From Arthrobacter sunyaminii (GTDB taxonomy: Bacteria; Actinomycetota; Actinomycetes; Actinomycetales; Micrococcaceae): a stretch of 64,000 bases of DNA. The notes below the pieces were generated by a model. That model saw nothing but the letters and a program-made list of their open reading frames with translations, was not told the origin of the DNA and did no database searches. The position numbers and the translations under genes were made by a program. Below, piece by piece: positions 51,384-54,889 of this stretch. Where the stretch lies: assembly GCF_018866305.1 (NCBI RefSeq), contig NZ_CP076456.1:806001-870000 (forward strand), given 5' to 3'. Position 1 is the stretch's first letter. Every line of letters begins with the position of its first letter.

Positions 51384-51983
51384 ATGTCTCAAACCCAGCA
51401 GATCCCTGCCACCGGCGTGTCCACCGTGGCCCGCATCGTCACCGAAACCACGGCACCTGCCGTACTGGTGGGGATTCTTCTGCTTCTGCAGCCCCTGCTC
51501 AGCCCCGGCGTCACCTGGCTGCAGGGCATCGTGGCCGCGGGATTCACCGTTGGCCTGCCCTTTCTCGGGATTCTCTGGCTGAAGCGGCGCGGTGCCGTGA
51601 CCGACCATCATGTGGGAGTGCGTTCCCAGCGGGCACCGATCCTGGCCGCGTCCGCGGTGTCCATCGGCATCGGTGCGCTGGTCCTGGTTCTGCTAAACGC
51701 CCCGGCAGTGCTCTTCGGCGAAATCGGCGGAGTGTTTATCGGGCTGATGCTGTGCATGGCGGCAAATCTGGTGTGGAAGCTGTCCGTCCACTCCGCTGTG
51801 GCCGCCTATGTTGGCCTAACGCTGTTGGCGCCCATCCCGGTCTTCGGACCCGCGCTGGCCCTGATGCTGGCATCGGCAACGGGGTGGTCCCGGGTGAAGC
51901 TCGGGGACCACACGCCCACGCAGGTGCTCGCGGGGCATCTGGCCGGCTGCGTGGCCTTCGCCGCCGCGCTTCTGCTGCCCTGA
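51384..51983 (+). CDS. PAP2-like membrane protein, degenerate (paralogue 1)
   Basis: This 199-residue integral membrane protein has about six hydrophobic segments. Its C-terminal part SRVKLGDHTPTQVLAGHLAG resembles PAP2 phosphatase motif C3 (SRxxxxxHxxxD), with Gln in place of Asp. KLSVH stands where motif C2 (PSGH) is expected, and motif C1 is not evident, so catalysis is doubtful. A second protein of the same design is encoded at 53523. ATG 51384 lies 6 nt after a TAGAAT box, so the mRNA is probably leaderless. It opens the ImmA/EspR-like cassette but has its own promoter. Confidence 0.75.
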   Translation: MSQTQQIPATGVSTVARIVTETTAPAVLVGILLLLQPLLSPGVTWLQGIVAAGFTVGLPFLGILWLKRRGAVTDHHVGVRSQRAPILAASAVSIGIGALVLVLLNAPAVLFGEIGGVFIGLMLCMAANLVWKLSVHSAVAAYVGLTLLAPIPVFGPALALMLASATGWSRVKLGDHTPTQVLAGHLAGCVAFAAALLLP

Positions 51984-52042
51984 CAGTAACTTTTCCGGTT
52001 GTGGAACATCGGTTTTGGGATAAAGTCCTAACATCCAGTCTC

Positions 52043-52068
52043 TTCACAGGCGCGCATCACCGTGTGAA
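52043..52068. promoter_or_regulatory. inverted repeat upstream of the ImmA gene
   Basis: TTCACA (52043-52048) and TGTGAA (52063-52068) face each other across 14 nt, 17 bp before ATG 52086. The half-site TCACA recurs in the perfect palindrome at 54607-54620 at the other end of the cassette. Confidence 0.4.
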
Positions 52069-52085
52069 ACAACGATGGGGAATTA

Positions 52086-52583
52086 ATGGCAGTGCGTTTT
52101 AGGAAGTCCGACGGCGGGGAACGGACGGCCTCGAAAGCAGCGGTCGCGGCCCTGAACCTGGGCGGACACGTAACGTTCGATGAATTGCTGGAAGTGGTCA
52201 CGGAAGCCCACGGAAAGCCGATTGAACTGCGCGACATTGACCATTCAATCATTCCCGCCGTCACGGGGCTCTGGATTGAAAAGGACAAAAAGTCCATCAT
52301 CCTGCTGCCCGCCGGCGACAACCGGCTGCACCGCACCCACGCCGCGTGCCACGAGTTTGGGCACATTCTCCTGCGCCACCAGGGGTGCGGCGGGGTGGAG
52401 ACGGCCATGCCGTCCGTCTTCCAGCACGTTGGCAGCCGCAAGGGCATCAAGCGGATGCTGGCCCGGTCCCTGGACTGGAACGAGACCGAGCGGGCCGCCG
52501 AGCACGTTGCCTACCTTCTGTCGCTGGCGCTGCTGCCCAACGGAAGCGAAAGCCCCAGCGACTTTGAGCGGACGTTCATGTGA
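52086..52583 (+). CDS. ImmA/IrrE family metallo-endopeptidase
   Basis: This 165-residue zinc peptidase has the HExxH motif in AACHEFGHILLRHQG near residue 88 and a likely third ligand in the helix ETERAAEHVAYLLSLALL. Family members cleave XRE-type repressors to switch on phage, mobile-element or stress genes (established for ImmA and IrrE). ATG 52086 has GGGGA 6 nt upstream. The stop overlaps the next gene as GTGA. The obvious partner here is the EspR-like regulator encoded 1.5 kb downstream in the same cassette, but no phage or integrative-element genes are present. Confidence 0.85.
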   Translation: MAVRFRKSDGGERTASKAAVAALNLGGHVTFDELLEVVTEAHGKPIELRDIDHSIIPAVTGLWIEKDKKSIILLPAGDNRLHRTHAACHEFGHILLRHQGCGGVETAMPSVFQHVGSRKGIKRMLARSLDWNETERAAEHVAYLLSLALLPNGSESPSDFERTFM

Positions 52584-53572
52584 CGCTCCTGCAAATCCTT
52601 CCGATCATCGTTCTCTGGGTGATGGTCGCAATCCGGCTGCTGGGCCTGTGTTTCGGCTGGCGCCCGGGCATCCTGCCAGCGGTTTTCCTGGTGGCACTGG
52701 GCGCAACCCTGAACATCGACCCGGTGTACCTGGCGGTGGACCGGCTCCTGGGCGGCTGGAACCTGCTCAACCTCATGGTCCACCTGCTCATGGGACTGGG
52801 CATGACGGAGCTGAGCCGGCTGCTGCTGCGGGTTACCGGCCGTTCGAACCACGTGAAAGTGCTCATCAGCGTGGGGATTGTCCTTGCCTTGGCGCAGATC
52901 GTGCTCCTGGTTGTCTCGGATACCGAAGGATCTGCGGCCAGTTTCACGGACACCTTCGGTGACATCCCGACCGTGGCTTTATACCAGGCCAGCTTCTTTG
53001 CCTGGTTTGGCATCATCACCGGGTACACAGGCGTGGAAACCCTGCGCCGCAACCGGCGGGGAGAGTCACGGCCCTTCCGGATCGGTTTCGACATTCTCTG
53101 TGCCGGGTGCATGGCCGGCGTCCTGGCGGCCGGCACCAAAATGATCCAGATCGGCCTGGAGATCGGCGGCGGCGACAGATACAACAATGGACTGATCACC
53201 GGATACCACGTTCTGCTCGCTCTCATGACCGTGGGATTTGCGGTGGGCTTCATCCTTCCGTCCTACGAACGCATTCGGCAAACCTTCCGGGCACGGACCG
53301 ACTGCGAAAGGGACCTTGCCGCGCTGCGGCCCATTATGGGTCGTCTGGTGCAGACACCTGAAGGCCGCCGGTCCATGGGAGCCGCCAACATTGTCCTCGA
53401 CGCCCGCGCGTCCAAGGCCCAGCTGTACCGCTGGTTCATTTTCATAGGCGATATCCGGGTCTTGGATCCCGGGCTGCTGTCGCCGCAGGAAATCCGAGTC
53501 ATTGATGAGATAGGCAGAAGAATTGAGCACAACAGTCCATCGGCGCAGCGTCCGGCTGTCCCTCGCCGCTAG
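52580..53572 (+). CDS. MAB_1171c-like multi-spanning membrane protein
   Basis: This 330-residue protein has about seven hydrophobic segments, including the first at LLQILPIIVLWVMVAIRLLG. The cytoplasmic C-terminal domain of about 90 residues (from SYERIRQTFRARTDCERDLA) contains conserved-looking LRPIMGRL and IRVLDPG segments. The layout matches actinobacterial proteins called MAB_1171c-type putative transporters, whose function is not known. It has no ATPase or MFS motif. GTG 52580 overlaps the ImmA stop. It could be a membrane sensor controlling the peptidase. Confidence 0.72.
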   Translation: MTLLQILPIIVLWVMVAIRLLGLCFGWRPGILPAVFLVALGATLNIDPVYLAVDRLLGGWNLLNLMVHLLMGLGMTELSRLLLRVTGRSNHVKVLISVGIVLALAQIVLLVVSDTEGSAASFTDTFGDIPTVALYQASFFAWFGIITGYTGVETLRRNRRGESRPFRIGFDILCAGCMAGVLAAGTKMIQIGLEIGGGDRYNNGLITGYHVLLALMTVGFAVGFILPSYERIRQTFRARTDCERDLAALRPIMGRLVQTPEGRRSMGAANIVLDARASKAQLYRWFIFIGDIRVLDPGLLSPQEIRVIDEIGRRIEHNSPSAQRPAVPRR

Positions 53573-54104
53573 CTGCTCCAAAATACTGCCGCCGGCTCTG
53601 GTGCTGACCATTCTGGTGCTCCTGGCAGGGATCAAGGCAGGGCTGGGGGCAGGCGGGGTGTTCCTGCTGGTGGCCGGCATCGTCGGCATTCCCGGTGCAA
53701 TTTACAAAGGCACCAAGCCCGTGTTCCGGCGCCGCGGCCTGCCGGACAGCTGGCGGACCAACATCGTGGCGGTCCTGATGCTTCTCGGCACCGTTATCTG
53801 CTGGGCTATCCCTCTGAAGGCGCCGATTCCGCTGACCGTGGGGGCCTTGCTTCTCGGCAATGTAGGACTGGTGTTCTTCCGCCGCTGGCTTGACGTGTCA
53901 GCCCATGTGTCGGTCATGACCTTCGCCGTTCTGTGGATTCCGACATTGTTCGGGGGAGCCTGGGCATGGCTGTTGATACTATCGCCGTTGATGATGTTTA
54001 GCCGGGTTGTACTGCGCGAACACACCCGGAGTGAGGCGTTGTCAGGCGCAGCACTGGGAGTGGCAACTTTCTGCTGTTTTCTCGTAGCAATGACTTGGAG
54101 CTGA
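53523..54104 (+). CDS. PAP2-like membrane protein (paralogue 2)
   Basis: This 193-residue membrane protein has about six hydrophobic segments. The C-terminal SRVVLREHTRSEALSGAALG fits PAP2 motif C3 with Glu for Asp, and DVSAH stands at the position of motif C2. It has the same overall design as the 51384 protein: the same length, the histidine segment and SRV...HT...G at matching places. The start is TTG 53523, overlapping the preceding gene by 50 nt, because no other start precedes the first membrane helix. It has no strong ribosome site, so translation may depend on coupling. Confidence 0.7.
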   Translation: MSTTVHRRSVRLSLAASCSKILPPALVLTILVLLAGIKAGLGAGGVFLLVAGIVGIPGAIYKGTKPVFRRRGLPDSWRTNIVAVLMLLGTVICWAIPLKAPIPLTVGALLLGNVGLVFFRRWLDVSAHVSVMTFAVLWIPTLFGGAWAWLLILSPLMMFSRVVLREHTRSEALSGAALGVATFCCFLVAMTWS

Positions 54105-54109
54105 ACTAA

Positions 54110-54541
54110 GTGGACGATTTTGGTCTTTCCCCGGAACGAGCCGCCGGCATCCGACGAGCCGAGACGCTCGCCAGAAAGATCAACCTCCTCTTGGACGTCA
54201 TCATGTCCGACTCGGGAAAGCCGTATGACTACCCGGCCATCAGGGACGGCGCCCAGAAAGAGGGCTACTACCTTTCCCGTACCCGGTGGTCCCTGCTGAA
54301 GTCCGGAAAGGAGCAGGTTGTCCCGGACGAGGCGCTGCGCGCCATTGCCGCGGTCTTTGACGTGGACCCCGAATACCTGCTGCAGGAAGGCGGAAAGCTG
54401 CCCGAGAGGGTGGAGGCCGAGCTGGAATTGCTCCGCAGTATGCGCCGCGCCGAGGTCCGCAACTTCGCCGCCCGCGCCCTGGGCCCCGTTGACCCGGAGG
54501 CGCTGAGGGCCATCGCCAAAATCCTGGACGAGGACGAGTAG
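54110..54541 (+). CDS. EspR-like HTH regulator
   Basis: This 143-residue regulator resembles mycobacterial EspR along its length. It has an N-terminal helix (KINLLLDVIM), an HTH with the recognition segment EGYYLSRTRWSLLKSGKEQV, a segment AIAAVFDVDPEYLLQEG, and a C-terminal dimerisation region (ELELLRSMRRAEVRNFAARA). GTG 54110 has GGAG 9 nt upstream and lies 5 nt after the preceding gene. It ends the cassette with ImmA and the membrane proteins and is the likely ImmA substrate. EspR itself binds DNA as a dimer of dimers at distant sites (established). Confidence 0.82.
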   Translation: MDDFGLSPERAAGIRRAETLARKINLLLDVIMSDSGKPYDYPAIRDGAQKEGYYLSRTRWSLLKSGKEQVVPDEALRAIAAVFDVDPEYLLQEGGKLPERVEAELELLRSMRRAEVRNFAARALGPVDPEALRAIAKILDEDE

Positions 54542-54566: not shown

Positions 54567-54595
54567 TTGACCGCACGGGGGTCCACTGTTATCGT
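54567..54595 (+). promoter_or_regulatory. sigma-70 promoter TTGACC-N17-TATCGT
   Basis: The -35 TTGACC (54567-54572) and -10 TATCGT (54590-54595) are exactly 17 nt apart. It is one of the best-spaced promoters in the window. No gene starts within the 300 bp that follow, so it probably makes an RNA ending at the hairpin 54779-54811. Confidence 0.65.
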
Positions 54596-54606
54596 TCAAT
54601 CATGTT

Positions 54607-54620
54607 TCACACATGTGTGA
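54607..54620. promoter_or_regulatory. perfect palindrome at +6 of the candidate small RNA
   Basis: TCACACATGTGTGA is a perfect 14-bp palindrome just downstream of the predicted transcription start, well placed for a repressor. The TCACA half-site also occurs before the ImmA gene. Confidence 0.5.
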
Positions 54621-54778
54621 GACTTGTTTGAACCATATAGCTGCAGGCGGGGACGGCGGTCGACTGGGGGGTCACCTTCGTCCACGCCTGGGCTTATGGC
54701 GGCATCCGAGCTAAAGGCTTGGTGGACCACTAATAGTGGAACATCTGCTGCCTGTGGGGGGTCAGTGTGATGTTGCAT

Positions 54779-54811
54779 GCGAAGCCAGCGGATTTCATCC
54801 GCTGGCTTCGC
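54779..54811 (+). terminator. terminator hairpin of the candidate small RNA
   Basis: Perfect 15-bp arms GCGAAGCCAGCGGAT and ATCCGCTGGCTTCGC flank a TTC loop. Confidence 0.75.
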
Positions 54812-54889
54812 TGCGTTCTGGGCCTAATTCACGCCTGACCTCGCCCGCGGCGCGCCGCCGCCCGTCGTCGTCGTTCGGTGATGGGGTAG

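Follow-up and report, generated by a model that had tools for sequence, protein, structure and literature searches.

A candidate operator-controlled G-loop RNA beside an ImmA/EspR-like cassette of Arthrobacter sunyaminii, and its possible C-loop RNA partner

Peptidases of the ImmA type are known from pairs such as ImmR/ImmA of ICEBs1 and CapH/CapP, in which the peptidase cleaves an adjoining helix-turn-helix (HTH) regulator. EspR of Mycobacterium tuberculosis is a nucleoid-type regulator acting at many sites. The stretch of Arthrobacter sunyaminii DNA analysed here, hereafter the window, comprises 64,000 nt at positions 806001-870000 of a 3.91-Mb single-contig genome (G000). It holds a cassette encoding an ImmA/IrrE-like peptidase (ImmA), a MAB_1171c-like multi-transmembrane (TM) protein (MAB), PAP2-like proteins and an EspR-like regulator (EspR), and, next to espR, a predicted small RNA (sRNA) with G-rich loops. 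Among described RNAs of related character, RosA of Bacillus subtilis, which has a sigma-A promoter, is a G-rich sponge that pairs with the C-rich sRNAs RoxS and FsrA in the account of PMC8216469, and the C-loop RNAs B11/6C and sX13 are described as acting at G-rich sites near translation starts (PMC10470900, PMC3771888). The reading preferred here is that EspR, ImmA and the multi-TM protein form a signal-controlled switch governing a sponge sRNA that titrates a C-loop RNA, to which a probability of about 0.45 is assigned.

The G-loop RNA and its operator-like palindrome

The first-pass annotation had seen no effector attached to the cassette. This does not hold, as a non-coding RNA (approximately 54602-54812) lies next to espR and carries at its start the genome's only exact copy of the palindrome TCACACATGTGTGA. 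Promoter-like boxes, a palindrome at the expected start and an RNA unit closing with a terminator hairpin are found 3' of espR in all 17 cassette loci of Arthrobacter, the boxes having diverged in two of them (L015 and L016). From palindrome to end the unit measures 115 to 305 nt and is rich in indels. Its 3' core is nevertheless constrained in structure: 93.3% of alignment cells are paired and 8 of 22 pairs show changes on both sides, neither value being matched in 500 shuffles. Folding z scores for the window RNA are -4.47 (54602-54745) and -6.81 (54738-54815). The loop of five or six G residues, displayed by the hairpin CUGCCUGUGGGGGGUCAG, is among the best-conserved stretches of the unit. 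The other G-loop element (GACUGGGGGGUC) is not universal: 14 of 17 loci possess it, and its stem comprises 4 pairs in the window copy and 6-8 in the remaining 13. A scan of the window RNA region against Rfam 15 gave no match at E 1.

The exact 14-mer TCACACATGTGTGA follows the cassette closely. It is present as one copy per genome in 16 of 29 Arthrobacter genomes, always downstream of espR, and has no copy in the 12 Arthrobacter genomes that are devoid of the cassette; the seventeenth cassette genome (G024) carries a one-letter variant. The association of exact palindrome and cassette has a Fisher p of 2.5e-7, uncorrected for kinship. Plasmid-borne cassettes retain TCACACATGTGTGA or a close form, which in Paenarthrobacter ureafaciens stands on both sides of the genes, including before immA. 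Perfect palindromes centred on ACATGT, some of the TCACACATGTGTGA type and others different, also lie downstream of four of 18 EspR loci in other genera (L178, L189, L192 and L193). Because palindromes thus accompany EspR genes on plasmids and in other genera, EspR is taken as the putative protein bound at this site.

Complementary RNAs at a core chromosomal locus

A covariance model of the G-loop RNA detected a further copy, located in several genomes at around 125-128 kb, and the hairpin of this core paralogue occurs without mismatch in 29 of 29 Arthrobacter genomes. Matches to the hairpin pattern outside the genera g1 and g32 were rejected as mostly chance, there being 62 against 35 for the reversed-pattern control and almost all bearing two mismatches. 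The core G-loop RNA stands 3' of a two-gene operon encoding HTH243 and a 244-aa MAB-like membrane protein (MAB244), and the order HTH243-MAB244-sRNA-ptsH held in all 13 loci inspected. HTH243 matched nothing in Pfam or the PDB, and is read from its HTH-like segments as a putative DNA-binding protein.

Relatives of HTH243 occur in 43 of 120 family genomes and 14 of 32 genera. The best 80 loci by similarity were taken as a named set and reduced to 79 by removal of L250, an assembly titled Vibrio cholerae with an HTH243 locus like those of Arthrobacter (66% identity to the query) and hence probably mislabelled or contaminated. A MAB-like gene follows HTH243 in all 79, and a G-run unit lies downstream in 78 (65 within 420 nt and 13 farther, the latter by eye mostly behind tandem MAB or HTH copies), these G-run patterns being counted without a shuffled control. 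Outside g1 and g32 a second type of G unit prevails, with UUGGGGG(G) before a terminator hairpin GAGUGGUGG. It is 94.4% paired, and its covariation score was reached by 0 of 500 shuffles; the pairs changed on both sides (60/500 shuffles) and the further pair types (70/500) are weaker measures. Two loci, L151 (g19) and L295 (Paenarthrobacter sp. DKR-5), have HTH243-MAB244 and the C-loop RNA described below with no G-run unit found; the sequence that comes next is, by eye, a convergent PAP2-like gene.

Upstream of HTH243, on the minus strand, is a hairpin with a loop of five or six C residues, followed in several genera by a U tract. This C-loop RNA is complementary to the G-loop, and its core copy in the window genome (126519-126585, minus strand) has a 6C-like C6 loop. 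Across 26 aligned sequences CCCCCA is the sole invariant stretch, and the stems show changes on both sides in 15 of 17 pairs with 94.1% of cells paired, as good as in none of 500 shuffles. One strong copy was found in each of the 24 Arthrobacter genomes sampled with the C-loop model, and matches extend to 125 of 295 family genomes and 16 of 32 genera. A C-run was present in the loop of 10 of 12 weak matches inspected within the family (not L321 or L331) and of one of four outside it (L336); as some weak matches are without such a loop, the family and order tallies are upper bounds. In the named set, whose species overlap the training set of the model, the C-loop RNA precedes HTH243, on the minus strand, in 78 of 79 loci (absent in L266), with weaker mirror matches on the plus strand in 33. 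Two g20 genomes (L325, L326) have divergent C- and G-RNAs separated by some 190-230 nt, an interval in which neither HTH nor MAB was matched.

The number of C-rich-loop hairpins varies, Arthrobacter having one, and the g23 loci (L327, L330 and L332, with two C5 hairpins) and two g25 loci (L322, L323) having two. Apart from tRNAs and weak matches, Rfam scans of 13 C-loop loci returned 6C in two of three g23 loci scanned (35.2 and 30.9 bits, gathering 47) and F6 in L323 (30.8 of 46 bits), all of the 6C and F6 matches being below gathering. No 6C (RF01066) was detected at E 0.001 in the 29 Arthrobacter genomes. On this ground the idea of an anti-6C RNA was at first dropped, and it was revived by the C-loop RNA beside HTH243.

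The mark of a sponge-type RNA, G-rich sequence complementary to that of a C-rich sRNA, is therefore present in silico, and the predicted duplex of the window's second loop with the C-loop has an energy of -17.9 kcal/mol.

Genes, spread and variants of the cassette

The five open reading frames lie in the order first annotated, with a GTGA overlap (52580-52583), a 50-nt overlap (53523-53572) and a 5-nt gap before 54110 (Table 1). The zinc motif HExxH of ImmA (H89, E90, H93) is unchanged in alignments of 21 and of 66 sequences, and its predicted fold resembles IrrE, PprI and CapP. Pfam PF06114 gave no match to the window protein, and a plasmid relative reached E 0.0094 (16.2 bits against a gathering score of 22); since the profile misses the protein and fold and motif back the assignment, it is named ImmA/IrrE-like. 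The name MAB_1171c-like draws support from an NCBIfam NF042915 match (E 3.4e-15), although its 56 bits fall short of the curated cut-off of 100. This protein has 108 relatives among 8000 scored candidates, and a literature search returned next to nothing on MAB_1171c and nothing on DUF6545. The label 7TM used here denotes the family picture of MAB-type proteins; a hydropathy-based TM count split helices and was left unused. The twin PAP2-like names stand on conserved residues rather than on Pfam scores, which are 22.7 for PAP2A and 19.2 for PAP2B against a gathering score of 27.2: H136, S169, R170 and H176 are unchanged in 17 sequences and form what we take to be the PAP2 catalytic-type motif, a conserved His with SR...H, phosphatase activity being putative. 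PAP2A and PAP2B show weak mutual similarity. The EspR-like name was borne out by a match to the EspR 3qf3 profile (E 2.5e-9) over profile positions 17-125, which span the HTH and C-terminal region. The cassette-flanking genes tested by Pfam encode a family 4 glycosidase and an FMN/NAD oxidoreductase.

Table 1. Features of the cassette, its RNA unit and the related loci (positions of the window unless a genome or locus is given)
Feature	Position	Strand	Basis or remark
PAP2A, PAP2-like membrane protein	51384..51983	+	Pfam score and invariant residues; frequent neighbour, not obligate
ImmA, ImmA/IrrE-like zinc peptidase	52086..52583	+	HExxH and fold match
MAB_1171c-like multi-TM protein, proposed sensor	52580..53572	+	NCBIfam NF042915 match
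PAP2B, PAP2-like membrane protein, variable 'enzyme' slot	53523..54104	+	Pfam score and invariant residues
EspR-like XRE regulator	54110..54541	+	Profile match to EspR 3qf3
sRNA promoter -35 box, TTGACC	54567..54572	+	Alignment of 17 loci
sRNA promoter -10 box, TATCGT	54590-54595	+	Spacing 17; alignment of 17 loci
G-loop small RNA, proposed output	54602..54812	+	Covariation and fold scores
Palindrome TCACACATGTGTGA, proposed EspR operator at sRNA start	54607..54620	.	Single exact copy in genome
First G6 loop region (GACUGGGGGGUC)	54662..54673	+	4-pair stem in window copy
Second, conserved G-loop hairpin (CUGCCUGUGGGGGGUCAG)	54748..54765	+	17/17 loci
Terminator hairpin	54780..54810	+	14 aligned pairs, 6 with both-sided changes
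Second cassette	G000:C1:3359510-3362750 (L002)		Alpha/beta hydrolase in PAP2 position
Core locus: C-loop RNA (minus), HTH243, MAB244, G-loop RNA, convergent ptsH	L090 6490-8514, genome ~126519-128513		Complementary loops

The MAB protein is found at 58% identity or more in 17 of 29 Arthrobacter genomes, and in every one of the 17 ImmA, MAB, PAP2B and EspR are collinear; the cassette is for these reasons not a chance assembly. Failure of the genes to co-occur had been named beforehand as grounds for abandoning the proposal, and within the genus they do co-occur. EspR is the best-conserved cassette protein, at 88-97% identity over the 17 loci. PAP2A belongs less firmly, being found upstream in 13 of 17 loci with a different gene in its place in the other four. 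The core cassette is accordingly four genes (ImmA, MAB, PAP2B and EspR) and the downstream RNA unit. Its parts other than ImmA are jointly absent from one genome (G016, L317), where ImmA and PAP2A are intact, another gene comes next, and MAB, PAP2B, EspR, operator and sRNA are all missing, which fits a functional unit. In another (G023, L005 2481-2980), the match to ImmA is split into two overlapping pieces, for which a frameshift or an error of sequencing may be responsible.

A second cassette type, ImmA2-MAB2-alpha/beta hydrolase-EspR2, occurs in the window genome and eight other Arthrobacter genomes, its EspR2 having 45-50% identity to EspR. With a hydrolase in this type, the enzyme position that separates the membrane protein from EspR emerges as a variable slot. 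In the window genome a palindrome, GGAACATGTTCC, precedes immA2. EspR relatives as a whole are spread over 66 of 245 family genomes and 13 of 32 genera, and relatives of the first cassette are carried on plasmids in Paenarthrobacter ureafaciens and, in part, in Arthrobacter sp. Rue61a, a few kb from ParA-family genes. The cassette is accordingly not restricted to chromosomes, a point on which the first-pass annotation was incomplete or wrong. On the Rue61a plasmid p232 (L139 4640-4775), a hairpin with a G5 loop (GCUUUGGGGGA) lies 3' of the EspR gene and an operator-like site; this segment folds no better than shuffles (z -0.83).

The switch reading, its rivals and described systems

In the preferred reading, the multi-TM protein would detect a membrane or envelope signal and ImmA, together with it, would inactivate EspR. 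The latter would bind the palindrome overlapping the sRNA start and control, most likely repress, the sRNA, which upon release would display one or two G5-6 loops. These could sequester the C-loop RNA, so that G-rich ribosome-binding sites blocked by such RNAs would become free, and the first cassette would represent a switchable second sponge added to the core G-loop RNA. The cassette, an operator-like site unique to it, the covarying RNA families, their usual positions on either side of one operon and the complementarity of their loops are seen in silico; repression, cleavage, the signal, transcription and intracellular pairing we infer. That EspR is the substrate of ImmA is suggested by the anatomy and conservation of the cassette, and its cleavage by likeness to the ImmR/ImmA and CapH/CapP families together with gene order. 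A sponge is the likeliest action of the sRNA because the genome also encodes a core RNA whose C6 loop is complementary, the G-loop RNAs being assigned this role by analogy. In outline, a chain running from signal through membrane protein, ImmA, EspR and sRNA to C-loop RNA is plausible, each of its biochemical steps being putative. The first-pass annotation had proposed a relay from membrane to proteolysis to transcription; the tight, conserved linkage of multi-TM, IrrE-like and EspR-like genes speaks for it, and what it overlooked were the RNA output, the non-obligate presence of PAP2A and the plasmid relatives. A wider scheme is offered tentatively, as possible though on balance doubtful: two layers would exist in Micrococcaceae, a core pair of C- and G-loop RNAs flanking the HTH-7TM operon and an accessory cassette, on plasmid or chromosome, adding a further G-loop RNA controlled by a single operator of its own, so that proteolysis of EspR upon a membrane signal would reset a 6C-like RNA controlling the translation of many genes.

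Several observations weigh against these proposals. Such a perfect palindrome is missing from 14 of the 18 EspR loci inspected in other genera, and seven of the 18 are free of cassette genes for about 1.5 kb around. ImmA is retained without EspR in G016 and may have another role; neither protein is thus strictly tied to the other. EspR could also activate rather than repress the sRNA. By eye, no G-loop sRNA follows the second cassette at any of nine loci, and the g8 cassettes L178 and L180 carry the operator, or a form differing from it, with no G-loop sRNA match, the model R1 giving a single weak match (E 0.07), which lies 5' of espR in L178. Within the sRNA core the further pair types are at chance level (185/500 shuffles), and in predicted folds some of the G-run is paired with CCU from the same loop. 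A broader survey of 30 HTH243 loci detected the C-loop hairpin in 23, and not in any of the five g25 loci, L159 or L161. Finally, pairing within genera is no stronger than across them (means of -18.85 and -18.3 kcal/mol, 21 loci), and no trans-covariation is evident beyond the G/C core.

Certain of these points bear on other explanations. The membrane protein and EspR might form the switch and ImmA act on a different substrate, by comparison with the core locus, where the open reading frames show HTH243 and MAB244 with no adjoining ImmA gene, and with the ImmA that is kept without the cassette's EspR in G016; this is unlikely, given that ImmA, membrane protein and EspR keep their order in every cassette genome and recur together in the second cassette type. 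Equally, the same switch and sRNA may operate with the G-loop acting directly on C-rich mRNA sites and not as a sponge. The highly conserved loop could pair with any C-run, and g25 has a G unit beside HTH243-MAB with no C-loop hairpin nearby. However, CCCCCCACRG has nine sites in the genome, compared with 18 for the reversed pattern; two of the nine fall on the antisense strand of the sRNAs themselves, the surroundings of the remaining seven reveal no clear mRNA target, and the frequent partnering with a locus for a C-loop RNA speaks for a sponge, which makes direct targeting rather unlikely.

A classical ImmA-repressor switch of the immunity type, serving the maintenance of a mobile element with the sRNA as by-product or regulator of element genes, would suit the plasmid relatives near ParA-family genes and the patchy spread over 17 of 29 genomes. 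It is quite improbable in view of the sRNA, which has a core chromosomal paralogue and is the sole site of the exact operator, and of the flanking genes identified by Pfam. Far less credible still is a gene for a small protein or peptide 3' of espR. Past the palindrome, one reading frame of the window genome stays open over about 30 codons, with no ATG, GTG or TTG near its beginning, but the variable length and many indels of the unit, and conserved parts that are stems with compensatory changes, led to rejection of this candidate.

Compared with ImmR/ImmA and CapH/CapP, the cassette shares an IrrE-fold peptidase adjoining an HTH regulator and differs in adding multi-TM and PAP2-like proteins and, as proposed output, an sRNA; a non-protein output for ImmA-type switches would be a possible consequence. 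Its EspR-like protein and M. tuberculosis EspR are homologous in the HTH and the greater part of the C-terminal region, yet the latter acts at many sites and the former has one exact palindromic site per genome. The scheme further puts forward a candidate antagonist of a 6C-like RNA of Actinobacteria. A literature search on sponges or decoys of 6C, covering titles and abstract openings of the leading matches, found no bacterial RNA antagonist. The C-loop RNA, both forms of G-loop and the operator are conserved, short elements that lend themselves to experiment in harmless soil bacteria.

The proposed C-loop RNA resembles the actinobacterial 6C/B11 (RF01066) in its C-rich-loop hairpins (PMC10470900), and departs from it in its sub-gathering score, its single hairpin in Arthrobacter and its linkage to HTH243-MAB244. 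It also resembles sX13 of Xanthomonas, the C-rich loops of which act on G-rich motifs near translation starts, an action put forward for the C-loop RNA as well; sX13 is however proteobacterial, and the parts of its report cited here describe no G-loop partner RNA (PMC3771888). The G-loop sRNA is likened to RosA and to RsaI of Staphylococcus aureus by features and not by sequence, all being stand-alone G-rich RNAs with C-rich sRNA partners (PMC8216469), a putative one in the case of the G-loop sRNA. The portions of that report drawn on here describe no link of RosA to the gene of its partner (PMC8216469), whereas the G- and C-RNAs discussed here usually flank one HTH-7TM operon, and, unlike RosA, the accessory G-loop copy is tied to an ImmA/EspR cassette.

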